The notes beneath the pieces were generated by a model that did no database searches, was not told the origin of the DNA, and saw only the letters and a list, made by a program, of their open reading frames with translations. DNA of 40,182 bases from a virus. Positions 2,113-22,322 of this stretch are shown here, in pieces. Numbering within the stretch: the first letter of the stretch is position 1; every line of letters begins with the position of its first letter. The stretch lies in the IMG/VR virus record IMGVR_UViG_3300025655_004161, positions 1-40,182 of that record. The stretch is one strand, 5' to 3'. The translations under genes and the position numbers were made by a program.

Positions 2113-3003
2113 TCAATCCTCCTCTGCCAATTTCTTGAAGAATGATAGACTATCGTCATCTTCTTCATCATCATTACTCCAAGGAACACTATCTTCTTCC
2201 TTAGCTGCCGCAACACGAGGTTGAGGTGCTGCAGCAACTTCACTTAGTTCAGGACCACCATCAAGACCAAGAACACGATTGAGTCGAGTCTTTTGTTCTT
2301 CATATGACTTGAAATTAGATACATCAAGAAACTTAGATAGTGGATGTTGAGAGTTCCAAATCTCTTCAATCCTTGCATCATCGTCAGATACAGCAGAACT
2401 CTTATCAAACTCTGATAGGTCATAGTTCTGATAACCTTCATATCGACGAATCTTCAACTTGAAGTTAGCACCCTCCCAGAAATCGAAAGGATTCATTGGA
2501 TCTTCATCTTCAAATTGAGGTTGCATTGCATTCTGCATCTTTTCGAAGATCTTTGCGCCATACCGATAAAGAAACACTTGACCCTCATTCTGAGGATTTG
2601 CCTTATCTGATACGACTAGAACATTGGAATAATAGTTTAATCGACGCTTCTGCTTACGAACAATATCCTTGTTGGACTCTACACCTGAGTTCCAAAGCAT
2701 AGAGTTGTGTTCGCAAACTGGACACTTTTCGCCAATTGTGGTTCGACATTCGTCAATCCACCAACCACCAGGACCCTGGAATCCATGATTGTATACCTTG
2801 ACCCATGGAAGTTCTTCACCAGGGGCTGCTGGTAGGAATCGAATGACTGAGTATCCGTTTCCTGCCTTGTCTACTTCAGGCTTCCAGATATTTTCGTTTG
2901 TGTTGAGTTCGTCTCGTGCCGTAATCTTTTCGGCTGCTGTTACTAGGTCACGAAGTGATGACTTACTTGACTTCTTGAGTGCGGCAAAAGATGTTGCTGC
3001 CAT
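2113..3003 (-). CDS. 32: Single-stranded DNA-binding protein, T4 gp32-like
   Basis: The 296-aa product coats single-stranded DNA during replication and recombination. The N-terminus is basic and Ser/Lys-rich, as in the gp32 cooperativity region. The zinc-binding set is visible as H (in YNHGF), C (in DECR) and CPVC, about residues 73-97, matching the H-C-C-C set of T4 gp32. The acidic tail (DDEEDDD near 277-283, then FFKKLAEED) is the usual docking site for gp59 and other partners. AAGGAG precedes the ATG. It is last in a 33-59-32 block, the T4 order, and ends in a strong terminator. Family assignment is firm. Confidence 0.95.
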   Translation of the reverse strand: MAATSFAALKKSSKSSLRDLVTAAEKITARDELNTNENIWKPEVDKAGNGYSVIRFLPAAPGEELPWVKVYNHGFQGPGGWWIDECRTTIGEKCPVCEHNSMLWNSGVESNKDIVRKQKRRLNYYSNVLVVSDKANPQNEGQVFLYRYGAKIFEKMQNAMQPQFEDEDPMNPFDFWEGANFKLKIRRYEGYQNYDLSEFDKSSAVSDDDARIEEIWNSQHPLSKFLDVSNFKSYEEQKTRLNRVLGLDGGPELSEVAAAPQPRVAAAKEEDSVPWSNDDEEDDDSLSFFKKLAEED

Positions 3004-3045: not shown

Positions 3046-3645
3046 TTAAACAAATATAGATTTTACGACATGACGATACTCCTTTGGATCAATTTCAATA
3101 AATGACGAATACTTTACTATCTTCTTATTATACTCGATCCAAATGAAATCGTCAACGTATTTATTGATCTTTTTCACGAATCCTAGCACTTTGTCTAGTA
3201 TAATAAAAGACTCGATTGATATATCTTCAGAGATGAGGAGTTTCAGAATTATTGGATGTTGCCCATCATCACACTGAAACACCTCATCAAACTGAAGATC
3301 ATTCCGATCCATATAATCACGAAGTTTACTCATATCTTCACGGAATGAATATTTAAGTGACTGGAACTTTCTCTTCCATTCGTTAAAGACTTGTTCAGCC
3401 TTGTCAGAAACAAGACCTCCACTCCAATTATTATCCTCCTTGATTAGATTTGAAACGAAGAATGGAACAAGTTCCTTCTTATGCCTCCTTTCTATCTTCT
3501 CGAAGAAAAACTTGTCTTTACGTCTTAAAAAAGATTCCTCCTTTACTCTCAGTTTACCATTATATTTAAAGTAATCATAATCAGTCGTAAAATGACTTCT
3601 CAGCGCAAGATAAGTTTTATACGCATTGAAACCAGGAAACGACAT
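3046..3645 (-). CDS. 59: Replicative helicase loader, T4 gp59-like
   Basis: In T4 this all-helical protein loads the gp41 helicase onto gp32-coated forks. The region AYKTYLALRSHF...YDYFKYNG...RRKDKFFFEKI closely follows the T4 gp59 N-terminus (VYKLYL...YDVIKYN...RRDKYFFQK). The acidic middle and FIILDKVLGF segment also match (T4 FILLDSFL). I place the start at ATG 3645, whose A is the last base of the gene 33 stop (TGATG); an ATG at 3663 would add six residues. Neighbours 33 upstream and 32 downstream reproduce the T4 gene order. Confidence in function is high. Confidence 0.88.
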   Translation of the reverse strand: MSFPGFNAYKTYLALRSHFTTDYDYFKYNGKLRVKEESFLRRKDKFFFEKIERRHKKELVPFFVSNLIKEDNNWSGGLVSDKAEQVFNEWKRKFQSLKYSFREDMSKLRDYMDRNDLQFDEVFQCDDGQHPIILKLLISEDISIESFIILDKVLGFVKKINKYVDDFIWIEYNKKIVKYSSFIEIDPKEYRHVVKSIFV

Positions 3646-3860
3646 CACATGGGCAATCTGCATAATTTCTCTGTTAGTAAATTTAAATCACTAGCCTCTG
3701 ATTCAATCTTCGCCTTGATAACTCTATTAATCATTTTAGCAACAGATTCAATCTCTACATTATTCTTTTCACAAAAATTGATAATTGCGTCAATATAAGA
3801 TTCACCAGTTTCATACACAAAATCTTCAATTTCTTGATTGAACTTATTCTTATCAATCAT
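3645..3860 (-). CDS. 33: Late transcription co-activator, T4 gp33-like
   Basis: This 71-aa protein resembles the short gp33 homologues of marine T4-like phages (pattern YxDAIxxxCExxxxEIExxAKxI...EAxxLNxL). In T4, gp33 bridges the RNA polymerase beta-flap and the sliding clamp to activate late promoters. Its ATG overlaps the cupin stop by 4 bases (ATGA) and its stop shares a base with the gene 59 start, implying coupled translation. The family call rests on pattern and synteny; the protein is too short for certainty. Confidence 0.78.
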   Translation of the reverse strand: MIDKNKFNQEIEDFVYETGESYIDAIINFCEKNNVEIESVAKMINRVIKAKIESEASDLNLLTEKLCRLPM

Positions 3861-4207
3861 TTCGAAATAATTCCTCCAGTATTCTTTCTTACAATATCTT
3901 CTGAGATTGATTCAGCGTAATAGATTTCTAGTACCTCAGCGTCTTCTACACATTCAAACCAATGATATTCACCCGGCTTCACTGTAGTGAAATTTCCTGG
4001 TCCTAGTTCTGTCTTATCTGTATGATCATAATCATTCTTACGTACAAAAATATTCATTTTACCGCTAATACAATAGAATCCGTTCCACTTGTGCTTATGT
4101 AAATGTTCTGAACATTTATAACCAGACTTTGTAATGATTCTGTGGACTTCAATCATGGGAGTCACTAAAAGAGGTTCTGTCTGACCCCAAACTTTACCAT
4201 AAATCAT
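3857..4207 (-). CDS. Small single-domain cupin
   Basis: The 116-aa beta-barrel protein carries the two cupin motifs: HLHKHKWNGFYCISG (about residues 36-50), with metal-ligand histidines, and GPGNFTTVKPGEYHWFE (about 70-86). Cupins of this size act as sugar epimerases, isomerases or mannose-6-phosphate isomerase-like enzymes. Substrate cannot be read from the sequence. It is coupled by ATGA overlaps to kdsA upstream and gene 33 downstream. The kdsA neighbour suggests a role in Kdo or another surface sugar pathway (inference). Confidence 0.8.
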   Translation of the reverse strand: MIYGKVWGQTEPLLVTPMIEVHRIITKSGYKCSEHLHKHKWNGFYCISGKMNIFVRKNDYDHTDKTELGPGNFTTVKPGEYHWFECVEDAEVLEIYYAESISEDIVRKNTGGIISK

Positions 4208-4998
4208 TTTTTAACCACTCCATCAATTTCTAAAATTTGTTCTATTATTTTTGGAAAATCTTTTAATTTAATCATATTAGGACCATCACTCGGTGCATTA
4301 TCAGGATCTGGATGGACTTCCATAAAGAGTCCTGCTATTGATACAGCGGTAGCCGCATAAGCAATAACAGAAGCAAAACGTCTATCACCCCCACTTGAAC
4401 CTCCCTGACCTCCTGGATATTGTACGGCATGTGTGCAATCCATAATGACAGGTGCATATTCTTTCATCACTTCTAATGAACGCATATCAACAACGAGATT
4501 GTTATATCCAAATGTTGTACCTCGTTCAGTTAACATTACTTCATTATAACCAAAGGATTTTATCTTGTCAACTATATTTTTTGTTTCCCATGGAGATAAA
4601 AATTGTCCTTTTTTTACATTCACAGGTTTACCAGTTTCGGCAGCTGATTTTAGAAGATCAGTTTGCCTACAGAGAAATGCTGGTATTTGAAGAATGTCTG
4701 CATTAGTTACGGAACATTGCCAAGATTCATGTACATCTGTTAATGTAGGTATACCTCTATTTCTTATTGAATCAAATGCATAATACGCACCATCAAAGTC
4801 TCCTCTGTATGAAGAGGATGATGTTCTATTTGCTTTATCAAAACTCATTTTAAAACAAAAGTTGACAGATAAATCGTCACAAATCTCTTTTAGAGTCTCT
4901 GCGATTTCCACTGCCAACTCTTGATTTTCAAAAACGCACGGTCCAGCAATAATCGATAGTTTCTTATCGTTAGCGAGACTATTATAAAAATTATTCAT
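4204..4998 (-). CDS. kdsA: 3-deoxy-D-manno-octulosonate 8-phosphate synthase (KdsA)
   Basis: KdsA condenses phosphoenolpyruvate with arabinose 5-phosphate to give Kdo-8-phosphate, the first committed step to the lipopolysaccharide core sugar Kdo. The 264-aa protein has the TIM-barrel family signatures IAGPCV (17-22), KMSFDKANRTS (about 49-59), LTDVHE (about 86-91), LTERGTTFGYNNLVVD (about 156-171) and a C-terminal FMEVHPDPDNAPSDG. Length is near the usual 270-285 aa, with no missing motif. It sits between a SleB-like hydrolase and a cupin inside a gp33-gp59-gp32 operon. A host-derived auxiliary gene acting on the cell surface is the simplest reading. Confidence 0.95.
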   Translation of the reverse strand: MNNFYNSLANDKKLSIIAGPCVFENQELAVEIAETLKEICDDLSVNFCFKMSFDKANRTSSSSYRGDFDGAYYAFDSIRNRGIPTLTDVHESWQCSVTNADILQIPAFLCRQTDLLKSAAETGKPVNVKKGQFLSPWETKNIVDKIKSFGYNEVMLTERGTTFGYNNLVVDMRSLEVMKEYAPVIMDCTHAVQYPGGQGGSSGGDRRFASVIAYAATAVSIAGLFMEVHPDPDNAPSDGPNMIKLKDFPKIIEQILEIDGVVKK

Positions 4999-5509
4999 AA
5001 AAAATATGCTTTCCTATTCTAATTAATACCTTTTTATTTTTGCTCCATTCGGGTACGACATAATCCGCATGATAAAATCTAGAACCTCTTGTGAAGTCTT
5101 CTACGTTAAAGTGTAGTAATGTATCTGCTATACTAATAGCTTTATACCAACTTTGTAAATCTTTTGGTGTATCTGATTTATTGTCACAATACCAAGAAAA
5201 TTGACACTTATATTTTACTATTTTGTTGTTTATCTTTACTGCCTGATATACAACGTCGCAGATGTTATTAGGGAAATCTTTGTCTTTTACACGATTTAGA
5301 GTTACGAGACCAATAGCATATTGACCAATAATTTCTTCTCCTCTAGCTTCAAAGTATATGTTTTTAGCTAAACAGTTCAGACTATCTTTATCTACTTCGT
5401 GACTGTCTGCATTATCCGGCAATGTTGCCATAGATACAAAAATAAGAATTAAGTAGACAAAACAAAAAATGATAAACTTTGCGATTCCCTTTTCGGAGAA
5501 TTTAAACAA
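4991..5509 (-). CDS. Cell wall hydrolase, SleB/Hydrolase_2 family, candidate endolysin
   Basis: The 172-aa protein has one N-terminal hydrophobic helix (about 10-28, IAKFIIFCFVYLILIFVSM) that could be a signal-anchor. The Hydrolase_2 domain follows: CLAKNIYFEARGE (about 46-58) with the catalytic Glu, AIGLVTLNRV, ICDVVYQ and CQFSWYCD, ending with SRFYHADYV. This family cleaves peptidoglycan as a transglycosylase/amidase and is a common endolysin in marine phages. The helix suggests a membrane-anchored or signal-arrest-release form. It overlaps kdsA by 8 bases and lies just downstream of the tmRNA. Confidence 0.88.
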   Translation of the reverse strand: MFKFSEKGIAKFIIFCFVYLILIFVSMATLPDNADSHEVDKDSLNCLAKNIYFEARGEEIIGQYAIGLVTLNRVKDKDFPNNICDVVYQAVKINNKIVKYKCQFSWYCDNKSDTPKDLQSWYKAISIADTLLHFNVEDFTRGSRFYHADYVVPEWSKNKKVLIRIGKHIFYE

Positions 5510-5535
5510 TGTTATATCCTTTAATTGTTAAAAGT

Positions 5536-5857
5536 GATTGGGCCCGTTATATGACAGGGTGGAACCCATACCCCGTGACTACAAGTCGATTAAGCCGCTA
5601 GGCGGATATCCTCGAAGTGGTTGTCATTTGCAACATTAAAGTTAGCATTTATAGTTTTGGTCCGATACGCTGGTACCATGGCGTCTACCTCGATTTGATC
5701 TTTACTACGTTAGTCGACCCTATTTCACCCCCCGCATAAGCATACCACAACAAACTCTTTCGTATCTAGCAAGGTCTCATTACTAGAGACGGTGATATGC
5801 TTATGGTGGAGGTGACGGGTACTGCCCCCGTGTCCTAACCGTCTATTCTATCTCCTC
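5536..5857 (-). ncRNA. ssrA: Circularly permuted two-piece tmRNA (ssrA)
   Basis: On the minus strand the 3' acceptor part comes first and the 5' part second. The acceptor piece has T-arm ACGGG-GGCAGTA-CCCGT (5815-5831) and ends CACCTCCACCA (5814-5804). The coding piece starts near 5732 with GGGGGTG, then the D-loop-like GGGTCGAC. The two make a 7-bp acceptor stem including G3-U70, the alanyl-tRNA synthetase identity pair, with CCA encoded. CTAACGT (5713-5707) pairs with ACGGTTAG (5842-5835, one bulge) as P2. The tag frame (5631-5590) reads ANDNHFEDIRLAA then TAA. A 10-bp inverted repeat (5796-5805/5735-5744) closes the spacer, which should be excised. The 5' and 3' ends are approximate. Confidence 0.93.
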
Positions 5858-6007
5858 TCAAACAGTAGATTTAATATTTATATTATCCATATCTAGACTC
5901 TTGACATAATCATACTCGTCTGCCAGTCGATCCAGATATTCTTCGTATTCCTTACGAATCTCAGGAAACCGAAACGCATCTTCGTACAACTCAACAAGTT
6001 CAAACAT
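5858..6007 (-). CDS. Small hypothetical protein, 49 aa
   Basis: The acidic 49-aa product contains ELVELYEDAFRFPEIRKEYE and a second Tyr/Asp-rich helix. No family is recognised. I choose ATG 6007 because GGGAG lies 8 bases before it. The gene follows a consensus promoter (6038-6066) and its stop directly abuts the tmRNA acceptor piece, so the two may share a transcript. Confidence 0.6.
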   Translation of the reverse strand: MFELVELYEDAFRFPEIRKEYEEYLDRLADEYDYVKSLDMDNINIKSTV

Positions 6008-6037
6008 CACATTCACTCCCTGTTTCATCATTTTTAT

Positions 6038-6066
6038 ATAATACAACAGAAATGAATTAATGTCAA
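6038..6066 (-). promoter_or_regulatory. Sigma-70-like promoter
   Basis: The minus strand reads TTGACA (6066-6061), a 17-base spacer, then TATTAT (6043-6038) running into ATAAAAATGATG. It drives the 49-aa gene and probably the tmRNA. The same arrangement recurs upstream of several small genes in this window and resembles host-type early promoters. Confidence 0.75.
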
Positions 6067-6179
6067 CAGTCTATGTTAACTGCCCATTCTACGTATTCTA
6101 CACCATGACTTACACTATCAATACAAGCCTTCTTAGTACCATTCTTCTCTGTAGATCTTCCATTCTGTAGATGCAACAT
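6063..6179 (-). CDS. Possible 38-aa protein overlapping its upstream neighbour
   Basis: ATG 6179 with AGGG five bases upstream opens a frame that overlaps the 3' end of the next gene upstream and ends in TGA within the -35 box of the promoter at 6038-6066. A stop codon inside TTGACA is also seen for the gene ending at 12013, which favours a real gene end. There is no homology to cite, so this is tentative. Confidence 0.35.
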   Translation of the reverse strand: MLHLQNGRSTEKNGTKKACIDSVSHGVEYVEWAVNIDC

Positions 6180-6351
6180 CGAAGCCCTGTTTTGCATATT
6201 CAGATGCCTGCGATGTACAAGTTTGTGTTGTATGTGCTACTGCCTTTGCTGTTGCGGTGTCTGTTACGGTATCTGCCACATCATTTGCAGTATCTACAAT
6301 ATCGTCTCCTAGTTTAGTCCAACTGCTTTTCTTAAATGGATTCCAACCCAT
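6133..6351 (-). CDS. Small hypothetical protein, 72 aa
   Basis: The product starts MGWNPFKK and continues with Asp/Ala/Thr-rich heptad-like segments (DDIVDTANDVADTVTDTATAK). It looks like an amphipathic helix without a signal peptide or a full membrane segment. A weak AGAAAG precedes the ATG. Similar short helical proteins occur in marine phages, but I cannot name a family. A TATAAATA box lies about 110 bases upstream. Confidence 0.55.
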   Translation of the reverse strand: MGWNPFKKSSWTKLGDDIVDTANDVADTVTDTATAKAVAHTTQTCTSQASEYAKQGFDVASTEWKIYREEWY

Positions 6352-6462
6352 AGAACATTCTTTCTATATAAAAAAAGTGATGGCCGCGATTTTTCCACTC
6401 TTTGGTACTTCATCCGCCATCCCTGCCGTACCTCACATAAATGAGCCTCAGCAGCACGGTGT

Positions 6463-6470
6463 TATTTATA
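6463..6470 (-). promoter_or_regulatory. Candidate T4-type late promoter (TATAAATA)
   Basis: The minus strand contains TATAAATA immediately after the tRNA-Leu gene. T4-like late promoters use this octamer at -10, and this phage encodes gp33. Downstream are an 18-codon frame (6420-6364, starting MADEVPKS, AGGG before the ATG) and the 72-aa gene at 6351. In AT-rich DNA the octamer could be chance. Confidence 0.35.
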
Positions 6471-6472
6471 TT

Positions 6473-6556
6473 TGGTGCGGGCGGCCGGACTCGAACCGGC
6501 AAGCGCTAGGCAATTGATTTTAAGTCAATCGAGTTTACCAATTTCTCCACGCCCGC
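6473..6556 (-). tRNA. tRNA-Leu (anticodon UAA)
   Basis: Minus strand: GCGGGCG (6556-6550) pairs with CGCCCGC (6483-6477), followed by A and encoded CCA. The anticodon loop CTTAAAA gives UAA. A long variable arm is present, as expected for class II tRNA-Leu, and the T-arm reads CCGGTTCGAGTCCGG. Confidence 0.95.
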
Positions 6557-6577
6557 TTAAACTTTTTTCTAAAGTTG

Positions 6578-6606
6578 TTTGTGTCTACCAATTCCACCAC
6601 GGGCGC
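6578..6606 (-). pseudogene. 5' fragment of a second tRNA-Leu
   Basis: The minus strand from 6606 has the acceptor 5' strand GCGCCCG and a full Leu-type D-arm (GTGGAATTGGTAGACAC), then degenerates. There is no variable arm, T-arm or acceptor 3' strand before the intact tRNA-Leu. It reads as a truncated tRNA left by recombination. Confidence 0.75.
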
Positions 6607-6612
6607 ATTATT

Positions 6613-6689
6613 TGGCGATCTCGGCAGGACTCGAACCTGCAACCGTCCGCTTAGAAGGCGGGTGCTCTATCCAATTGAGCTACGAGACC
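6613..6689 (-). tRNA. tRNA-Arg (anticodon UCU)
   Basis: Acceptor GGTCTCG (6689-6683) pairs with CGAGATC, discriminator G, CCA encoded. The anticodon loop CTTCTAA gives UCU, reading AGA/AGG. The T-arm is GCAGGTTCGAGTCCTGC. AGA is common in AT-rich phage genes. Confidence 0.95.
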
Positions 6690-6774
6690 AATTAACAATA
6701 CCAACACAATTTCAAAATTGCGTATGCAAAGGGTAAAAATGATAACAAAACTAATGTTACCATATACCAATTAA

Positions 6775-6918
6775 TCAAGGCAATACTCTCTTTACGACTA
6801 CATGTCCCATCTCAAATGGTAGAGTTACCATATCATAAGCAATACCAATAGGTGTCAATGGTGTTACAGCACAAGCTGAAACCAAAAGACCAAGACTGAT
6901 AACGATTACCTTTTTCAT
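6775..6918 (-). CDS. Small lipoprotein, 47 aa
   Basis: The product begins MKKVIVISLGLLVSAC, a textbook lipoprotein signal with lipobox LVSAC (Cys16), leaving a mature peptide of about 32 residues. GAGGAAC precedes the ATG, which overlaps the purS stop (ATGA). Roles such as outer spanin or superinfection exclusion are possible for phage lipoproteins of this size, but nothing in the sequence decides. Confidence 0.7.
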   Translation of the reverse strand: MKKVIVISLGLLVSACAVTPLTPIGIAYDMVTLPFEMGHVVVKRVLP

Positions 6919-7136
6919 AGTTCCTCAATCACATAATTTTCCATTACTTCATTATATACAGACTTAGCAATGTCGTCAACTAAATTTTCATCACATTCAA
7001 TATGGATAGTCTTACCGATTCTAACATTTTCAACGATATCGTAACCCATAGATCGTAAAGCATTTGCTACTGCATCGCCTTGCATATCTTTGATACCGGG
7101 ACGAAGGGTAGTAGTGATTCTATATTTCTTTATCAT
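6915..7136 (-). CDS. purS: PurS-like subunit of FGAM synthase
   Basis: The 73-aa protein follows the PurS pattern: KYRITTTLRPGIKDMQGDAV (the usual motif is V..K.GVLDPQG.AV), then ALRSMGYDIVENVRIGK (usual L..LGY..V..VR.GK). PurS joins PurQ and PurL in formylglycinamidine ribonucleotide synthase and may channel ammonia. PurS-like genes are known in marine myoviruses. No purQ or purL lies in this window, so it would act with host or distant phage partners. It overlaps the upstream gene by 17 bases. Confidence 0.8.
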   Translation of the reverse strand: MIKKYRITTTLRPGIKDMQGDAVANALRSMGYDIVENVRIGKTIHIECDENLVDDIAKSVYNEVMENYVIEEL

Positions 7137-7455
7137 GAATCCAATCCATGTTTAACCAGTCTGTTTCTTCTGGCATTATCTCAATCTTGTCGCCGTGCAG
7201 TTCTTTAAACTGATTCCAGATATGAGCATTATTCACACGTAGAGTATAATTCTCCTTGTGGCAACTATAACAACTACCGCTTGATCCATAGAAATTAAAA
7301 CGGTCACCAGCATCCTCGACACGAGTAATGCCACTATTCATGCGCCAGCTATCGCCAGTGAGGTATCCACCACTCCACCCTGCGAGCACACGATAATGCG
7401 GGTCATCACCATTTATTTTAATAACAACCCAGTTGTCAGGATTATAATCAGTCAT
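7120..7455 (-). CDS. Conserved phage protein of unknown function
   Basis: The product (111 aa from ATG 7455) is rich in Trp, Gly and Asp, with WVVIKINGDDPHYRVLAGWSGGY at the start and a central CYSCHKE motif that could bind metal. The ATG is embedded in the previous gene's stop (AATGACTGA), which decides this start over the ATG at 7470. The tail DWLNMDWIHDKEI is echoed by gene-end remnants near 8163 and 8563. I recognise no function. Confidence 0.65.
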   Translation of the reverse strand: MTDYNPDNWVVIKINGDDPHYRVLAGWSGGYLTGDSWRMNSGITRVEDAGDRFNFYGSSGSCYSCHKENYTLRVNNAHIWNQFKELHGDKIEIMPEETDWLNMDWIHDKEI

Positions 7456-7678
7456 TTTCGCCACACTCATCTACTACCCACGCATAATTGGTTGTAATCC
7501 AGTCCTCTAGACAATCTTCAAACGACCAGTTTTTGTCCACTTCTTCTTTACCATACTTTTTACACATCTTCTCATACCACCAAGGATAGTATTCTTTTCT
7601 GATATCATCCTCTGATACTGTTACAATAGACGTTCCTTCTCCCGGTTCTACCAGTTCATCATAAGAAAAATATCTCAT
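7448..7678 (-). CDS. Conserved phage protein of unknown function, 76 aa
   Basis: Starting at ATG 7678, preceded by GAGGCGAGG, the product begins MRYFSYDELVEPG and contains EYYPWWYEKMCKKYG and EDCLEDWITTNYAW. This resembles a short hypothetical protein common in T4-like marine phages. The frame extends upstream to 7792, but the ribosome-binding site favours the shorter form. No catalytic motif is evident. Confidence 0.65.
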   Translation of the reverse strand: MRYFSYDELVEPGEGTSIVTVSEDDIRKEYYPWWYEKMCKKYGKEEVDKNWSFEDCLEDWITTNYAWVVDECGEND

Positions 7679-7685
7679 CCTCGCC

Positions 7686-7886
7686 TCACTCATCATCTCT
7701 TGGTAGTAATCTTTTCCAAAACAAATCGATAAACCACATATCGTACTTTTTACCAATACTGAACAATGATCTTTCGTGTTCTTCCCACTCAACTAGAAAT
7801 ATTGAAAAATGCCACTCTGATTCATATGAATGCCAATGAAAGATTACTGGCGCAAAATAACCATACTCTGGAAGTTTAATCTTCAT
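7686..7886 (-). CDS. Small hypothetical protein, 66 aa
   Basis: The start at ATG 7886 is chosen because GGTGAGGCGAGG directly precedes it, the same leader as the next gene downstream. The product is rich in aromatic residues (GYFAPVIFHWHSYESEWHFSIF) and ends KRLLPRDDE. No family is recognised. Confidence 0.5.
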   Translation of the reverse strand: MKIKLPEYGYFAPVIFHWHSYESEWHFSIFLVEWEEHERSLFSIGKKYDMWFIDLFWKRLLPRDDE

Positions 7887-7893
7887 CCTCGCC

Positions 7894-8127
7894 TCACCAG
7901 CCTGGAGCAGAGTAGTCTCTGTCCTTTTTATAAGATGCAAAACCGTCTAGTCCGTATGTTGGACAAACCATAATCTCCTCAGGTAAACCCATGCTATCCT
8001 TCTCACCTGCTACACCACAGATAAAGAACACACCAGTATTTTCAGCCATTGCATGTTTGAACATAGTCTCATACTTCTCAACCTTCTTGCGAAGGAGTAG
8101 TACTTCTTCATAATAATCTTCAGTCAT
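7894..8127 (-). CDS. Conserved phage protein of unknown function, 77 aa
   Basis: An N-terminal acidic coiled coil (EDYYEEVLLLRKKVEKYE) leads into FFICGVAGEKDSMGLPEEI and VCPTYGLDGFASYKK, a pattern I recall from short hypothetical proteins of marine myoviruses. Its last residues (YKKDRDYSAPGW) are echoed by a gene remnant at 10236-10286. No function is assigned. Confidence 0.6.
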   Translation of the reverse strand: MTEDYYEEVLLLRKKVEKYETMFKHAMAENTGVFFICGVAGEKDSMGLPEEIMVCPTYGLDGFASYKKDRDYSAPGW

Positions 8128-8159
8128 TTTCTTTCGCCTCTTTCTTTTCTTGTTGAAGA

Positions 8160-8200
8160 AATGTGATGATCCTATATTTCTTTATCATTTAGTTTTTCTC
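8160..8200. repeat. 41-bp direct repeat, copy 1
   Basis: Identical to 8560-8600; the pair brackets the gene at 8245-8550. On the minus strand it encodes the gene end REKLNDKEI followed by TAG. Upstream of copy 1 the frame reads TDHKINWV before a stop, so this 117-base gap is a relic of a gene 3' end rather than a gene. Confidence 0.85.
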
Positions 8201-8244
8201 TAACCCAGTTAATCTTATGGTCAGTGAACCGCCGTTAACTGTAA

Positions 8245-8550
8245 TCATACTTGTCTCGGTGATTTGCCTGTGATTAAGTACATTTTCTTTATTATAGCAC
8301 CAACATCTGCTTCTGTCAAGCGTCCTTTTACAGTATCGCCTTCTTCTGTAATGCCAGGCAACTCTACCATGTCAAATGCTACACCGTCTGCTGCTTTGAA
8401 CAGTCCAATCTCGTAAAGTCCTTGCTCAGAACCAAATCCGTCGTTGATGATGCTGAGATGGTAATCGCCAAAGTCTAGCACAGCCTGCCGACCTTTTGCG
8501 CCACGCTCTTTTTGTATCATTTCAAAACTTGATAATTCTAATACGGCCAT
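8245..8550 (-). CDS. Conserved phage protein of unknown function, 101 aa
   Basis: The product (MAVLELSSFEMIQKERG...) has mixed alpha/beta composition, with FGDYHLSIINDGFGS and a C-terminal ADVGAIIKKMYLITGK helix. It has no signal peptide or membrane segment. GAGGGCAAC precedes the ATG. The gene sits between the two 41-bp repeats and could be a recombinational insertion. Confidence 0.65.
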   Translation of the reverse strand: MAVLELSSFEMIQKERGAKGRQAVLDFGDYHLSIINDGFGSEQGLYEIGLFKAADGVAFDMVELPGITEEGDTVKGRLTEADVGAIIKKMYLITGKSPRQV

Positions 8551-8559
8551 GTTGCCCTC

Positions 8560-8600
8560 AATGTGATGATCCTATATTTCTTTATCATTTAGTTTTTCTC
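8560..8600. repeat. 41-bp direct repeat, copy 2
   Basis: Identical to 8160-8200. Here the repeat overlaps the stop of the gene ending at 8585 but encodes DWLGREKLNDKEI out of frame with it, so the repeat appears to be an older gene end now fused to a different coding sequence. Confidence 0.85.
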
Positions 8601-9130
8601 TTCCTAACCAGTCTTGTCTTCTTCGCTCGCATGAAGAATTGCTCGTCCTTCTCCGGAATATCCGAAAGATCGAGATTCTCATCCGAGATTTCAGCATCTT
8701 TCTTCTCCACCATTTCACCGTTACGAACAACGTAGTGTTTAACTTCACACATACTTGACTTAATATAAGCACGACCTCCGTCGATCATATTGCCGTTCTC
8801 AAACCGTTTATAATCATGGCGATGTGCGCTGTACTGTAGATTGCCATCATCATCTTCAACAAGCCCAAACTCTACAGATTCAATTCGATCTGCATTGGTA
8901 ATCATAATTTGTGGCTTTTGTGTTACTCGTGTATCAACCATATTGTAATATAATCCAAAGTAATGGTTACCAAACTCAGGGTGTGGAGTATCCCTGTAGA
9001 AGATATCCATTGCTTGTGCTTCGCCTCTTAACGCACTGGTGCACACATAGGTAACAGGAACACCATCTTTCTTAGTATAGTGTTCGCAAATCTTGTCAGT
9101 ATCAAATAGTGGTTCGTGTTTAATCATCAT
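8585..9130 (-). CDS. Conserved phage protein of unknown function, 181 aa
   Basis: Starting at ATG 9130 (two bases after the previous stop, with GTGGAA upstream), the product begins MMIKHEPLFDTDKICEHY. It contains VPVTYVCTSALRGEAQAMDI, a FGNHYFGLYYN aromatic segment, and a basic tail (RLVRKRKTK). It looks cytoplasmic and globular. The last residues are encoded within the 41-bp repeat, so its C-terminus may have been altered by recombination. Confidence 0.65.
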   Translation of the reverse strand: MMIKHEPLFDTDKICEHYTKKDGVPVTYVCTSALRGEAQAMDIFYRDTPHPEFGNHYFGLYYNMVDTRVTQKPQIMITNADRIESVEFGLVEDDDGNLQYSAHRHDYKRFENGNMIDGGRAYIKSSMCEVKHYVVRNGEMVEKKDAEISDENLDLSDIPEKDEQFFMRAKKTRLVRKRKTK

Positions 9131-9131
9131 T

Positions 9132-9764
9132 TCAATTCCACAAATTCTCATAATACTTGCCAAACAGTCTAAAACCGTTGCTCATTCTTTCTTGGTGTTT
9201 CTTTCTACCTTCGTCGTCTGTCCATTCAAAATGTCCACCTAAGATTCCTCCGCCTTCGCCTTCAATATATGGACCGTAATAATCTTCTTCCCAGTTATCA
9301 CGATTCTTTTGTTCAAACGCAAAGATCATTTCGTCTAGCACCCAGTCCCAACGTTCGAAATGCTTGTCATCTACTACGCCTGGAAGGGCTTGTTCTTTCT
9401 GCTTCTTGGTAAGTTTCTTGCCATGTAGTTCTTTGGGTACATCTTCCAAATCAACATAGGGAGCACCTTGTTTGGTTTCCTTTAGTTGCTTGAGCATAGG
9501 AAGTACAATGTATGTTAGAGTATGATCCATACTCCATGTGTCCCAAGGATCGATGTGTACTTTTACCCTTTGCTGTCTACGATCAAACCAAATCCAGTTA
9601 AACACATTATAAACACCTTGCATACAATCTTCCAACCATTCAAGTGTGTTTTCAAATCGTGAATGCTCATTAGGCCAATTCACATAACCATACTTCTTGA
9701 TCATATAGTTCTCATAAACACGAGATTGGAGTCTGTTTGGATAAGGTCTTATTTTAACTTTCAT
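9132..9764 (-). CDS. Conserved phage protein of unknown function, 210 aa
   Basis: Starting at ATG 9764 (MKVKIRPYPNRLQSRVYENY), the protein is rich in Trp, Tyr and charged residues: WLEDCMQGVYNVFNWIWFDRR, VHIDPWDTWSMDHTL and WDWVLDEMIFAFEQKNRDNW. It recalls long-conserved hypothetical proteins of T4-like marine phages. There is no recognisable catalytic motif. The start overlaps the end of the upstream gene, implying coupling. Confidence 0.7.
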   Translation of the reverse strand: MKVKIRPYPNRLQSRVYENYMIKKYGYVNWPNEHSRFENTLEWLEDCMQGVYNVFNWIWFDRRQQRVKVHIDPWDTWSMDHTLTYIVLPMLKQLKETKQGAPYVDLEDVPKELHGKKLTKKQKEQALPGVVDDKHFERWDWVLDEMIFAFEQKNRDNWEEDYYGPYIEGEGGGILGGHFEWTDDEGRKKHQERMSNGFRLFGKYYENLWN

Positions 9765-10234
9765 AAGTCTTCTTTCCAAGTCTTCTTGTTAATAAACACT
9801 TTTAGAGTTTTATCATCATCTTGTAAACTATACTTGATGCCTTCGTCCTTGTCAAGATACTTTACAAGATACTTTACATAAGCTCGTCCAGTTTCGTCAA
9901 CGACTTCAAATCTAGTAACTGCTTTCATTTTTTCAAATTCTTCGCCGTCAAAGATAGCATTGTGTAGTGCCATATAACCGCAGTCCATGCCACGCATATA
10001 CATACCTGAATCAAAACCAAATACAGTGTATAGTGCATAACGATAGGTTCCGCGATCTATCAACTCTGCTTTGCAAATACGTTTAACTACAGCACAGAAA
10101 GCATCTTCACGTTCTTCTTCAGTAAGTCCGTTCCACCATGCATCGTTACGTGCTTCATCTTCTTTACGATGTTTTTCCATTTTTTGCGACAAATCACTTA
10201 GTTCTTGCAGTGCTTTTTCTTTATCGTCATCCAT
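9761..10234 (-). CDS. Conserved phage protein of unknown function, 157 aa
   Basis: A charged N-terminal helix (DDDKEKALQELSDLSQKMEKHR) is followed by LTEEEREDAFCAVVKRICKAEL, a Tyr/Gly-rich centre (YALYTVFGFDSGMYMRG) and a basic/acidic tail. GGAGTGGTAAT precedes the ATG. It overlaps the next gene by four bases. No family is named. Confidence 0.65.
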   Translation of the reverse strand: MDDDKEKALQELSDLSQKMEKHRKEDEARNDAWWNGLTEEEREDAFCAVVKRICKAELIDRGTYRYALYTVFGFDSGMYMRGMDCGYMALHNAIFDGEEFEKMKAVTRFEVVDETGRAYVKYLVKYLDKDEGIKYSLQDDDKTLKVFINKKTWKEDL

Positions 10235-10235
10235 A

Positions 10236-10286
10236 TTACCACTCCGGTGCTGTATAGTCTTTGTCTTTCTTATAAGTTGTTGTCAT
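10236..10286 (-). pseudogene. Chimeric gene remnant, 16 codons
   Basis: After a duplicated leader, the copy of the reading frame at 10801 has TAG in place of TGG (MSMHLVGP then stop). A second ATG then opens MTTTYKKDKDYTAPEW. The last residues match the C-terminus of the gene at 7894-8127 (YKKDRDYSAPGW). This looks like a fusion of the start of one gene with the end of another after a duplication. Confidence 0.6.
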
Positions 10287-10359
10287 CTACGGACCTACAA
10301 GATGCATACTCATATCATCTCCAAAAATGGTGCTGGTGGAGAGACTCGAACTCCCGACC
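10276..10359. repeat. 84-bp direct repeat, copy 1
   Basis: It matches 10764-10847 with one mismatch. It covers the 3' part of tRNA-Ile plus a downstream leader with a ribosome-binding site and a start codon, so a tRNA and its flank were duplicated together. Confidence 0.9.
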
Positions 10360-10405
10360 CTCGCTTTATAAGAACGATGCTCTAGTACCACTGAGCTACA
10401 CCAGC
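10328..10405 (-). tRNA. tRNA-Ile (anticodon UAU)
   Basis: Acceptor GCTGGTG (10405-10399) pairs with CACCAGC, A73, CCA encoded. The anticodon stem TCGTT/AGCGA encloses loop CTTATAA, anticodon UAU, which reads AUA. The T-arm and 3' half are identical to those of tRNA-Thr at 10816. AUA is a codon enriched in AT-rich phages. Confidence 0.92.
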
Positions 10406-10411
10406 AAATAT

Positions 10412-10801
10412 TCATCCTCGCCTCTTTCCAGTGGTCGGATCATTAGCGTCTTCTTTAGATAGTACCTGTAGACCACCTTTATTATACGCTTGACCGACAA
10501 CATATTGAGAGCTATACATCAGTTTTGTCTCTCTGTCAACTGATTTATTCGTTTGAATCGGTACAATTTTGTTACTGAGAGGAATTTGGTCGGAGTGGTA
10601 GGATTCGAACCTACGACCCTCTGGTCCCAAACCAGATACACTACCAGGCTGTGCTACACTCCGTTGAGAAGGATGAGCGCCCATCTTACGAAGCCACTTA
10701 TCATGTTCGATATCAGCTTGTAATTGACGCTTAGACTTTTTAGATTTACGTTTACGAGTGGATGTTGTTGTCATCCACGGACCTACAAGATGCATACTCA
10801 T
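10412..10801 (-). CDS. Open frame running through tRNA-Pro; probably one or two small genes
   Basis: GGAGATGAT precedes ATG 10801. The first 47 residues are basic (TRKRKSKKSKRQLQADIEHDKW) and resemble small basic phage proteins. The frame then passes through tRNA-Pro on the same strand without a stop; that part (VAQPGSVSGLGPEG) is simply translated tRNA. The last 35 residues (MYSSQYVVGQAYNKGG..., possible own start at 10519) look coding again. Either a tRNA was inserted into a gene in frame, or two short genes flank the tRNA. I cannot tell which from sequence alone. Confidence 0.4.
   Translation of the reverse strand: MSMHLVGPWMTTTSTRKRKSKKSKRQLQADIEHDKWLRKMGAHPSQRSVAQPGSVSGLGPEGRRFESYHSDQIPLSNKIVPIQTNKSVDRETKLMYSSQYVVGQAYNKGGLQVLSKEDANDPTTGKRRG
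10587..10663 (-). tRNA. tRNA-Pro (anticodon UGG)
   Basis: Acceptor CGGAGTG (10663-10657) pairs with CACTCCG, A73, CCA encoded. The anticodon arm CTGGT-TTTGGGA-ACCAG gives UGG. The T-arm is GTAGGTTCGAATCCTAC. It lies inside the open frame 10412-10801. Confidence 0.95.
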
Positions 10802-10847
10802 ATCATCTCCAAAAATGGTGCTGGTGGAGAGACTCGAACTCCCGACC
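10764..10847. repeat. 84-bp direct repeat, copy 2
   Basis: Second copy of the 10276-10359 repeat. It comprises the tRNA-Thr 3' part and the intact leader and start of the frame at 10801. Confidence 0.9.
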
Positions 10848-10892
10848 AGAGGTTTACAAAACCCCTGCTCTACCCAACTGAGCTACACCAGC
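10816..10892 (-). tRNA. tRNA-Thr (anticodon UGU)
   Basis: Acceptor GCTGGTG (10892-10886) pairs with CACCAGC, A73, CCA encoded. The anticodon stem GGGGT/ACCTC encloses loop TTTGTAA, anticodon UGU. Its acceptor and T-arm equal those of tRNA-Ile at 10328, so the two are likely paralogues. Confidence 0.93.
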
Positions 10893-10896
10893 AAAT

Positions 10897-10971
10897 TGGC
10901 TCCTGGAGAGGGATTCGAACCCCCGACCGGGCGGTTAACAGCCGCCAGCTCTACCACTGAGCTACCCAGGA
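10897..10971 (-). tRNA. tRNA-Asn (anticodon GUU)
   Basis: Acceptor TCCTGGG (10971-10965) pairs with TCCAGGA, G73, CCA encoded. The anticodon arm GGCGG-CTGTTAA-CCGCC gives GUU. It lies four bases upstream of tRNA-Thr, so the two are probably co-transcribed. Confidence 0.95.
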
Positions 10972-19482: not shown

Positions 19483-19962
19483 TCATTCATTACCAGTCAC
19501 CACAGCGTCACCAGTCACCATAGCGTTACCAGACACCACAGCGTCACCAGACACCACAGCGTAACCAGACACCCAAGCGTCACCAGACACCTTAGCGTCA
19601 CCAGACACCCAAGCGTCACCAGACACCCTAACGTTACCAGTCACCACAGCGCGACCAGACACCTTAGCGTCACCAGACACCCAAGCGTCACCAGTCACCA
19701 TAGCGTTATCAGACACCCTAACGTAACCAGACACCACAGCATTATCAGACACCCTAGCGTTACCAGTCACCACAGCGTAACGAGTCACCATAGCGTAACC
19801 AGTCACCCTAGCGTAATCAGACACCCTAGCGTAATCAGACACCCTAGCGTTAGGCCCAACATAGGCGGACTCAGAAACAGTGGCGGTATCAGCGACCCAC
19901 CCACCACCATTAGGATGCTGGTGGGCGGAGACCGGACCGTTGCCAAAATCAAAAGTAGTCAT
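19483..19962 (-). CDS. Left-handed beta-helix (hexapeptide-repeat) protein, copy A
   Basis: AAGGAGTGAATGAC before ATG 19962 sets the start. The shared head MTTFDFGNGP...GGGWVADTATVSESAYVG is followed by about 20 hexapeptides of type V-[ST]-[GD]-x-A-x, such as VSGNAR and VTGYAM, the rule for a left-handed parallel beta-helix. There is no transferase active-site loop, signal peptide or extra domain. It is the last of five tandem paralogues. Such helices can form trimeric enzymes, scaffolds or fibres; function is unknown. Confidence 0.8.
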   Translation of the reverse strand: MTTFDFGNGPVSAHQHPNGGGWVADTATVSESAYVGPNARVSDYARVSDYARVTGYAMVTRYAVVTGNARVSDNAVVSGYVRVSDNAMVTGDAWVSGDAKVSGRAVVTGNVRVSGDAWVSGDAKVSGDAWVSGYAVVSGDAVVSGNAMVTGDAVVTGNE

Positions 19963-19975
19963 GTCATTCACTCCT

Positions 19976-20545
19976 TCATTCATTACCAGTCACCACAGCG
20001 CGACCAGACACCACAGCATTATCAGACACCACAGCGTCACCAGACACCACAGCGTCACCAGTCACCACAGCGTAACCAGACACCCAAGCGTCACCAGACA
20101 CCACAGCGCGACCAGACACCACAGCGCGACCAGACACCACAGCGCCACCAGACACCCAAGCGTCACCAGACACCCTAGCGTAACCAGACATCTTAGCGTA
20201 ACCAGACACCCTAGCGTAACCAGACACCCTAGCGTTATCATACACCCAAGCGTTACCATACACCACAGCGTTACCATACACCCAAGCGTTACCATACACC
20301 ACAGCGTAACCAGACACCCTAGCGTCACAAGTCACCTCAGCGTTATCATACATCCTAGCGTTACCAGTCACCCGAGCGTTATCAAACACCTTAGCGTTAC
20401 CAGACACCACAGCGTCATCAGACACCCAAGCGTTAGGCCCAACATAGGCGGTCTCAGAAACAGTGGCGGTATCCGCAACCCATCCACCACCATTAGAATG
20501 CTGGTGAGCAGGAACTGGACCAGTACCAAAATCAAAAGTAGTCAT
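19976..20545 (-). CDS. Left-handed beta-helix (hexapeptide-repeat) protein, copy B
   Basis: The start is ATG 20545 after GAAGGAGTGAATGAC. The product has the same head (MTTFDFGTGPVPAHQHSN) as copy A and about 25 hexapeptides, including runs such as VSGRAVVSGRAV and VYGNAWVYGNAV from recently duplicated 18-bp units. The end VSGRAVVTGNE nearly matches that of copy A, pointing to gene conversion between neighbours. Confidence 0.8.
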   Translation of the reverse strand: MTTFDFGTGPVPAHQHSNGGGWVADTATVSETAYVGPNAWVSDDAVVSGNAKVFDNARVTGNARMYDNAEVTCDARVSGYAVVYGNAWVYGNAVVYGNAWVYDNARVSGYARVSGYAKMSGYARVSGDAWVSGGAVVSGRAVVSGRAVVSGDAWVSGYAVVTGDAVVSGDAVVSDNAVVSGRAVVTGNE

Positions 20546-20586
20546 GTCATTCACTCCTTCATCCATTACCTAGCGTTACCAGACAC

Positions 20587-21243
20587 CTACGTGTTCGCCG
20601 AGTAACGGGTCCCAGACACCACAGCGCGACCAGACACCACAACGCGACCAGACACCACAGCATTATCAGACACCTCAGCGTAACCAGTCACCACAGCGTC
20701 ACCAGACACCACAGCGTTACCAGCCACCACAGCATTATCAGACACCCTAGCGTCACCAGTCACCACAGCGCGACCAGTCACCACAGTGTAACCAGACACC
20801 ATAGCGTTACCAGACACCACAGCGTCACCAGACACCCAAGCGTCACCAGACACCTTAGCGTAACCAGTCACCACAACGCGACCAGTCACCATAGCGTCAC
20901 CAAACACCTCAGCGTCACCAGACACCACAGCGTAACCAGTCACCATAGCGTTATCAGATACCCTAGCGTAACCAGACACCCTAACGTTACCATACACCAC
21001 AGCGCGACCAGACACCCTAGCGTCACAAGTCACCTCAGCGTTATCAGACACCCTAGCGTTACCAGACACCCTAGCGTTACCAGACACCACAGCGTTACCA
21101 GACACCACAGCGGCATCAGACACCCAAGCGTTAGGCCCAACATAGGCGCTCTCAGAAACAGTGGCGGTATCAGCGACCCACCCACCACCATTAGAATGCT
21201 GGTAGGCGGAGACCGGACCGTTGCCAAAATCAAAAGTAGTCAT
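20587..21243 (-). CDS. Left-handed beta-helix (hexapeptide-repeat) protein, copy C
   Basis: ATG 21243 is preceded by GGAGTGAATGAA. It is the longest copy (218 aa), with the common head and about 30 hexapeptides. The last residues (SGTRYSANT) depart from the repeat, and the 40 bases after the stop still contain repeat-like sequence, suggesting an unequal-crossover junction. Confidence 0.8.
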   Translation of the reverse strand: MTTFDFGNGPVSAYQHSNGGGWVADTATVSESAYVGPNAWVSDAAVVSGNAVVSGNARVSGNARVSDNAEVTCDARVSGRAVVYGNVRVSGYARVSDNAMVTGYAVVSGDAEVFGDAMVTGRVVVTGYAKVSGDAWVSGDAVVSGNAMVSGYTVVTGRAVVTGDARVSDNAVVAGNAVVSGDAVVTGYAEVSDNAVVSGRVVVSGRAVVSGTRYSANT

Positions 21244-21248
21244 TTCAT

Positions 21249-21773
21249 TCACTCCACAATAGCGTAATCATACAACATCGCGCGACCAGACACCCGAGCG
21301 TTACCAGACACCATAGCGTGACCAGACACCACAGCGCGACCAGACACCTCAGCGTTACCATACACCTCAGCGTAACCAGTCACCACAGCGTAACCAGACA
21401 CCACAGCGTTATTATACACCCTAGCGTTACCATACACCCTAGCGTCACAAGTCACCTCAGCGTTATCATACACCCTAGCGTTACCAGTCACCCGAGCGTT
21501 ATCAAACACCTTAGCGTTACCAGACACCTCAGCGTAATCAGACACCCTAGCGTTACCATACACCACAGCGCGACCAGACACCACAGCGCGACCAGACACC
21601 TCAGCGTTACCATACACCACAACGTTACCAGTCACCACAGCGTTATCAAACACCATAGCTTCGGGCCCAACATAGGCGCTCTCAGAAACAGTGGCGGTAT
21701 CAGCGACCCATCCACCACCATTAGAATGCTGGTGGGCGGGGACCAGGCCGTTGCCAAAATCAAAAGTAGTCAT
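21249..21773 (-). CDS. Left-handed beta-helix (hexapeptide-repeat) protein, copy D
   Basis: The start is ATG 21773 after GAAGGAGTGAATGAC. The product has the common head (MTTFDFGNGLVPAHQHSN) and about 23 hexapeptides; the block around VFDNARVTGNARVYDNAEV is shared with copy B. It ends MLYDYAIVE, and the stop overlaps the leader of copy C. Confidence 0.8.
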   Translation of the reverse strand: MTTFDFGNGLVPAHQHSNGGGWVADTATVSESAYVGPEAMVFDNAVVTGNVVVYGNAEVSGRAVVSGRAVVYGNARVSDYAEVSGNAKVFDNARVTGNARVYDNAEVTCDARVYGNARVYNNAVVSGYAVVTGYAEVYGNAEVSGRAVVSGHAMVSGNARVSGRAMLYDYAIVE

Positions 21774-21793
21774 GTCATTCACTCCTTCATCCA

Positions 21794-22294
21794 TTACCAA
21801 GCGTTACCAAACACCTTAGCGTAACCAGACACCTCAGTGTTACCGGACACCTCAGCGTTACCGGACACCCAAGCATCATCAGACACCATAGCGTCACCAG
21901 ACACCCTAGCGTAACCAGTCACCATAGCGTAATCAGACACCCTAGCGTAATCAGACACCACAGCGCGACCAGACACCCTAGCGTAACCAGACACCCTAGC
22001 GTAACCAGTCACCATAACGTAATCAGACACCTTAGCGTGACCAGTCACCACAGCGTCACCAGACACCACAGCGTTACCAGCCACCCTAGCGTCACCAGAC
22101 ACCACAGCGTTACCAGACACCATAGCGTCACCAAACACCTCAGCATCACCAGACACCCTAGCGTTATCAGACACCCTAGCGTTAGACCCAACATAGGCGG
22201 TCTCAGAAACAGTGGCGGTATCAGCGACCCACCCACCACCATTAGAATGCTGGTGAGCGGGGACCAGGCCGTTGCCAAAATCAAAAGTAGTCAT
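21794..22294 (-). CDS. Left-handed beta-helix (hexapeptide-repeat) protein, copy E
   Basis: This is the promoter-proximal copy: ATG 22294 after GAAGGAGTGAATGAA, about 30 bases downstream of the TATAAT box. The product has the common head, with AYVGSNAR in place of AYVGPNA, and about 21 hexapeptides. It ends KVFGNAW. A sigma-70-like promoter rather than a late promoter suggests early expression, which argues against a purely virion role. Confidence 0.8.
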   Translation of the reverse strand: MTTFDFGNGLVPAHQHSNGGGWVADTATVSETAYVGSNARVSDNARVSGDAEVFGDAMVSGNAVVSGDARVAGNAVVSGDAVVTGHAKVSDYVMVTGYARVSGYARVSGRAVVSDYARVSDYAMVTGYARVSGDAMVSDDAWVSGNAEVSGNTEVSGYAKVFGNAW

Positions 22295-22322
22295 TTCATT
22301 CACTCCTTCATCAACTATAGTT

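Follow-up and report, generated by a model that had tools for sequence, protein, structure and literature searches.

The DNA analysed here, referred to below as the window, is a stretch of 40,182 nucleotides from a T4-like phage (IMG/VR record IMGVR_UViG_3300025655_004161), and it carries on its minus strand a complete permuted tmRNA gene at about 5869–5540, found both by Rfam models and by ARAGORN (Table 1). The match to RF04321 (tmRNA_permuted) scored 116.6 bits (E 2.8e-22, span 5869–5590, cut-off 47) and that to RF01849 (alpha_tmRNA) scored 107.1 bits (E 1.9e-28, span 5911–5537, cut-off 50), E-values that exclude a chance match, while ARAGORN also calls the gene a permuted tmRNA (tmRNA*). 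The original prediction of a phage-encoded, circularly permuted two-piece tmRNA is thus borne out by Rfam, ARAGORN, covariation and the phage locus, and the covariance-model search that it had proposed gave scores far above cut-off with both models. The 3′ half is located ahead of the 5′ half with an acceptor stem spanning the spacer, as had been described, and both the alanine identity pair G3-U70, found in 190 of the 198 tmRNA rows with parsed parts, and the encoded CCA are present. Besides the tag start, two details required correction. The outer boundary had been placed at 5857, which is too short and leaves out the strand at 5869–5858 that forms the 5′ arm of the helix between the pieces, and the T-loop GGCAGTA, previously considered atypical, is an ordinary one for alphaproteobacterial tmRNA that occurs in 24/61 class-wide bacterial rows and in 14 of 50 rows of the Rickettsiales-order set, i.e. 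bacteria of the order of G003, a contig titled Rickettsiales. This 5′ arm coincides with the final codons and the stop of a 62-codon upstream ORF (5858–6046).

Table 1. Features of the tmRNA gene and of its surroundings in the window.
Feature	Position	Strand	Basis
Sigma-70-like promoter TTGACA-17-TATTAT, possible early read-through via small ORF into tmRNA	6038–6066	−	11/12 matches
T4-type late-promoter motif TATAAATA, 5 bases ahead of the precursor's first pairing base	5875–5882	−	Motif count
Permuted two-piece tmRNA gene (3′ piece, spacer, 5′ piece)	5540–5869	−	Rfam, ARAGORN, covariation
Inter-piece helix, 5′ arm (UCUAC and UUUGA)	5858–5869	−	Helices 1 and 2 of the covariation count
P2 strand of 3′ piece, with GGAC	5832–5841	−	Helix 3
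T-stem and loop ACGGG GGCAGUA CCCGU	5815–5831	−	Helix 4, 100% paired
Acceptor 3′ strand with U70 and encoded ACCA; mature 3′ end	5804–5814	−	Sequence
71-nt spacer, presumably removed on maturation, closed by UAAGCAUAUC / GGUAUGCUUA	5733–5803	−	Helix 6
Acceptor 5′ strand GGGGGUG; start of mRNA-like piece, 5732 first	5726–5732	−	Helix 5, 98.6% paired
P2 strand of 5′ piece (CUAACG)	5705–5713	−	Helix 3
First pseudoknot, CGC/GCG firm, second stem weak	5659–5683	−	Helix 7, 100% paired; helix 8, 73.5% paired
Tag frame ANFNVANDNHFEDIRLAA and UAA; tag start repeated at 5646 and 5631	5590–5646	−	ARAGORN, relatives
Post-tag pseudoknot, GGGGU/ACCCU and GGGUUC/GGGCCC	5540–5574	−	Helices 9 and 10, 100% paired
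Cell wall hydrolase (Hydrolase_2), next gene downstream	4991–5509	−	PF07486, E 3.3e-22
Late-transcription coactivator gp33, downstream	3645–3860	−	PF16805, E 4.5e-22
Helicase loader gp59, downstream	3046–3663	−	PF08993/PF08994
Single-stranded DNA-binding protein gp32	2113–3003	−	tblastn to T4-like cyanophage gp32, 56% identity

The gp32, gp33 and gp59 of the window are T4-like. Elsewhere in the window there are six minus-strand tRNA genes at 6473–10971 (Leu-TAA, Arg-TCT, Ile-TAT, Pro-TGG, Thr-TGT and Asn-GTT) and a phosphate-binding-protein-like gene (PF12849) at 1007–1966, a common type of auxiliary gene in marine T4-like phages. Five adjacent minus-strand ORFs of short VSGxAxV-like repeats with raised G+C, located at 19483–22303, look like hexapeptide-type repeat proteins.

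Structural constraint and the doubled tag

Pairing was counted against the structure drawn from the window sequence in an alignment of ten phage sequences (the window, L123, L128, four sister-group contigs, L296, L300 and L097). Of 546 cells 95.4% were paired, and two-sided changes were found at 21 of 56 pairs compared to 11.7 in shuffles, none of which (n = 500) reached this count, and 1–6 in slid controls. The proposed P2 pairing between the pieces was 98.3% paired with two-sided changes at 3 of its 6 pairs, and the 10-bp inverted repeat said to close the spacer also held across the ten phage sequences, with 97.0% of its cells paired and 6 of its 10 pairs changed on both sides. Judged from this alignment, the most telling changes are those in the spacer hairpin, in the inter-piece helix, where UCUAC/GUAGA in the window becomes GUUAC/GUAAC in relatives, and in the last pseudoknot, where helix 10 had two-sided changes at 4 of 6 pairs. 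Covariation thereby backs the inter-piece helix and the pseudoknots, with support weak for helix 8 (73.5% paired), which makes up the second of the two stems in the first pseudoknot, and for helix 2 (83.3% paired). Folding of the whole gene as a single sequence gave a z of −2.31, which was set aside as evidence since pseudoknots and a two-piece state are beyond the scope of such folding.

In L123 the spacer loop is quite different and the closing arms still pair; in a comparison of L123:2935–3345 with window:5500–5900 the spacer loop was unrelated, being partly like that of L167, and the rest of the gene was alike. An exchange of the L123 spacer between phages is possible. In the contig L161 (positions 1–577) a DNA methyltransferase frame (PF01555) continues into the tmRNA 5′ half and stops within it, at the place expected for the spacer and the 3′ half; the sequence of L160, whose 5′ half is the same, starts exactly past the CCA. 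Either DNA was inserted into the spacer or the contig is chimeric, and the junction is regarded here as a one-contig oddity or chimera because a pattern search revealed no tmRNA half beside 18 homologues of the methyltransferase.

tmRNA genes are described as integration sites in excerpts of PMC11915505, and the window gene could by that token be a decaying passenger or the remnant of an integration site, the more so as ARAGORN misses relatives of the L128 type that are 95% identical and have one extra D-loop base. This reading is close to refuted: the gene is whole with both halves there, its substitutions are two-sided and its tag is open, and the form missed by ARAGORN is still detected by Rfam (L439, 111.3 bits).

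The tag is most likely the 18 residues ANFNVANDNHFEDIRLAA, read from a resume codon GCU at 5646. The tag frame originally proposed does end in TAA as stated, and only its start and its length of 13 residues need revision. The first GCU of the window is located 71 nt past the TCGAC motif, and this distance was 70–71 nt in 8/8 rows of the window clade and 68–73 nt in 61/61 class-wide bacterial rows, whereas the start given in the prediction would sit 85–86 nt past TCGAC, 15 nt later. The uniformity of this spacing in the clade and in class-wide bacteria makes the second start an unlikely site of resumption; several Rickettsiales-order tmRNAs have a longer stretch than the window, of 94–96 nt. 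From resume codon to stop the frame is intact and terminates in RLAA, a degradation-type C-terminus. Close relatives have a tag identical to the letter save for a silent AAC/AAT change, the sister group has a different tag that keeps the frame and RLAA, and 75 of 77 phage rows have a tag ending in a hydrophobic residue followed by AA.

The window and its sister phages, whose tags read ANDNIANDNYSEYRLAA or ANDNIAIDNYSEYRLAA, share a doubled tag start of the form ANDN-x-ANDN. L296 and L300, with the tag ANFNVANDNRFEEVRLAA, have it too. In the doubling the first five codons are repeated in tandem, and the copies in the sister group differ silently. L097 and L298 have a related AN-x-K-x-SNDN form, and L295 fits the latter pattern at its sequence end but has no Rfam tmRNA match. 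Among the bacteria examined, doubled starts occurred only in the Rickettsiales-order set, where a rule-based count gave 29 of 50 rows against none of 45 class-wide rows. These bacterial tmRNAs (L308, for example, with ANDNFANDNFEFTPVALAA) resemble the window in their ANDN-x-ANDN start but differ in their tag ends, in their location on a bacterial chromosome and in having no late motif. Long tmRNA tags were seen in Rickettsiales-order bacteria in general (L304–L316, L380, L387, L393, L410, L414 and others), unlike in the other alphaproteobacteria sampled. The phage and Rickettsiales-order doublings probably arose separately.

The late-promoter motif and the fixed locus

The T4-type late-promoter motif ahead of the gene recurs in other phages. 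NATAAATA, reported as such a motif for cyanophage S-PM2 in excerpts of PMC2984593, was present 78–79 nt ahead of the CCA end in 8/8 rows of the window clade, and either TATAAATA or NATAAATA was found upstream in 41 of 76 phage rows (one further row was too short and was excluded), in 40 of them at 72–79 nt before the CCA end. None of the 50 Rickettsiales-order rows and only four of the 61 class-wide rows had the motif, those four at 123–146 nt, so that it occupied the phage position in 0/111 bacterial rows; the background is about 0.03 per search window. At a match of at least 7 of 8 bases the motif was seen in 53 of the 76 phage rows, 23 being below that level. A TTGACA-like box (5 or 6 of 6 bases) at sigma-70 spacing accompanied it in 28 of these 53 rows, for which reason some phage tmRNA promoters look double, early and late, while 18 rows had three matches or fewer. 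Overlapping early and late promoters in T4-like phages are discussed in the same excerpts of PMC2984593. In the window, as judged by eye, there is no TTGACA box before the late motif, and the sigma-70-like sites of the region are weak as a class, 7 being found where 5.6 were expected.

The gene also holds a consistent position. In a structural scan, 31 of 80 gp59 loci had a permuted tmRNA, in all 31 cases upstream of gp59 on the same strand and 2.07–6.5 kb away. The remaining 49 loci gave none, many of them having too little upstream sequence; where 6 kb or more lay upstream (18 loci), 15 carried the tmRNA and 3 did not. To judge from this arrangement, the location upstream of gp59 looks like the result of long inheritance inside the phage group.

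That permuted tmRNA in a phage might be new, as was implied at the outset, is not the case: it has been published already (PMC9004378) and is frequent in IMG/VR among the matches listed. According to the portions of PMC9004378 used here, a set of 18,146 phage genomes included 402 with tmRNA, which amount to 133 unique structures; ARAGORN called 53 of these two-piece, 50 of the 53 coming from marine or aquatic samples, and phage Melnitz is among the carriers. Portions of other papers give 79 unique bacteriophage sequences in a tmRNA database (PMC11915505) and ten earlier phage ssrA records (PMC4131195). The ssrA of the Methylophilales phage Melnitz (MZ577097; PMC9004378, in part) resembles that of the window in being a permuted alpha-type tmRNA of a T4-like marine phage, lying upstream of gp33-gp59 on the same strand with TATAAATA upstream. 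It differs in its tag of 14 residues with a single start, where that of the window has 18 and is doubled, in the TTGACA box ahead of its late motif, and in a glutamine riboswitch after the gene, of which none was found in the window at 4000–7200 at E-values up to 1. Moreover, in the window three further genes separate the tmRNA from gp33. A gene of the DAHP/KDO-8-phosphate synthase family (PF00793) is found at 4204–4998 between tmRNA and gp33, and it is absent there in Melnitz. Pelagibacter phage HTVC008M (NC_020484, 145161–145370) likewise has a permuted tmRNA (90.6 bits), which on a circularised record would lie some 2 kb ahead of gp59, as in the window locus, but its tag has 10 residues, ANFNEYALAA. 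Another pelagiphage is reported without tmRNA in an excerpt of PMC10504331.

The tmRNA of the window is intact, ordinary in kind and divergent in its tag. To our knowledge, the doubled tag, the late motif at a fixed place and the fixed locus upstream of gp59 look new; neither doubled tags in phages nor a late promoter ahead of a phage tmRNA came up in the parts of the literature searched, which mostly lie outside subscription papers.

Origin of the gene and its probable role in infection

Measured against alphaproteobacterial two-piece tmRNA (RF01849 / RF04321), the window gene has all the structural hallmarks and is set apart by being phage-borne, on a distinct branch and doubled in its tag. 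It had been supposed that the gene came from the host. On one such reading the phage recently took up the ssrA of its own SAR11 or Rickettsiales-like host and carries it without special phage adaptation. SAR11 tmRNA adjoins thyX according to an excerpt of PMC2704228. The doubled tags of 29/50 Rickettsiales-order against 0/45 class-wide rows point in that direction, and AU tests do not reject a union: the p-AU was 0.433 when the window group and 13 doubled-tag Rickettsiales rows were joined as one clade and 0.117 when all 50 Rickettsiales rows were included. Against this, the phylogeny called for in the original prediction placed all 77 phage rows on one side of a branch and the 111 alphaproteobacterial rows on the other (support 97/98; 188 rows, 217 columns with tag and spacer removed, bootstrap not settled), and a separate tree of 170 rows likewise held its 75 phage rows on one side. 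The best bacterial DNA match in 385 alphaproteobacterial genomes was 76% over 98 bases. This match and the branch split make recent capture from a sampled host unlikely, and the phage late motif and the fixed phage locus also speak against it. A Rickettsiales donor, suggested by the doubled tags, finds no support in the best trees, which separate the phage rows, and is not rejected by the AU tests. An older bacterial origin of phage tmRNA is the natural assumption.

The scope of these trees should be kept in mind. Bacterial rows were non-random, being the loci with the highest scores, genomes picked by hand and the best BLAST matches, and included no SAR11 tmRNA recognisable by a ThyX neighbour, and the phage rows are mutually related, so that counts do not represent independent events. 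The quick tree, with 198 parsed rows reduced to 170 by removal of duplicates and poorly parsed rows and with bootstrap not settled, placed ten HTVC008M-type phage rows among bacteria, whereas the careful trees did not. Twelve permuted calls with unparsable halves were dropped, among them L438, the HTVC008M copy, and HTVC008M itself is thus in no tree since its halves were left unparsed by rule; the 188-row tree skips L438, L456, L458 and L469. A search of the 385 genomes with the HTVC008M tmRNA, run without positive control, gave no match at E 1e-8.

Read from its sequence, the gene combines a permuted order, a tRNA-like domain with alanine pair and CCA, covarying helices, an open tag, a fixed locus and TATAAATA, and it very probably represents a working two-piece tmRNA that a T4-like phage has inherited together with its gp33-gp59-gp32 block. 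The transcript would start at about 5869, early by read-through from 6066–6038 and/or late from 5882, the late start being driven by the late machinery of the phage, which depends on gp33. The 71-nt spacer would then be excised by tRNA-processing enzymes (RNases) of the host to leave two paired RNAs, host alanyl-tRNA synthetase would charge the 3′ end, and host SmpB would carry the charged RNA to stalled ribosomes, where the 18-residue tag would be added and the tagged product destroyed by a host protease. The RLAA end would direct tagged chains to host proteases; speculatively, the doubled ANDN may offer the host adaptor SspB two positions on the tag. SmpB was not found in six phage records, including a close relative of 126,920 bases, and SspB was not found in four, these records being possibly incomplete. 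The phage would probably benefit from recycled ribosomes once host transcription, that of host ssrA included, has stopped and mRNA is broken.

A decoy role, in which an RNA resembling tmRNA would titrate SmpB and thereby block rescue by the host, has a precedent in the RNA of mycobacteriophage DS6A, which consists of the tRNA-like domain only and for which such a role is suggested in a portion of PMC4131195. The DS6A form has no tag, whereas the window gene keeps tag, stop, pseudoknots, covarying helices and a C-terminus of the degradation type, and we regard a decoy as distinctly improbable here. For a working tmRNA, the idea that it keeps ribosome rescue going late in infection is made more likely by the late-promoter motif, while the tagging of particular proteins, also put forward in the original prediction, is unsupported. 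Excerpts of PMC9004378 score the Melnitz ssrA promoter as early and propose early action; the late box upstream of the Melnitz tmRNA argues for late action too, and the late motif described here contrasts with the early expression proposed there.

With the window, the known phage tmRNAs gain a divergent group. The finding of an alpha-type tmRNA in a phage is not enough to tell which host it infects. Why phages carry tmRNA may now be approached by three handles, namely the late motif at its fixed place, the long-held locus beside gp33 and the doubled tag. We tentatively suggest, as a possibility we would not yet favour, that T4-like aquatic phages hold an old virus-borne lineage of two-piece tmRNA whose transcription is switched on by the phage late promoter and starts from the first paired base, the tag start having been doubled in tandem in one branch. 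If so, the rescue products made late in infection by phages of the doubled-tag branch would be handled differently by the host adaptor and protease.
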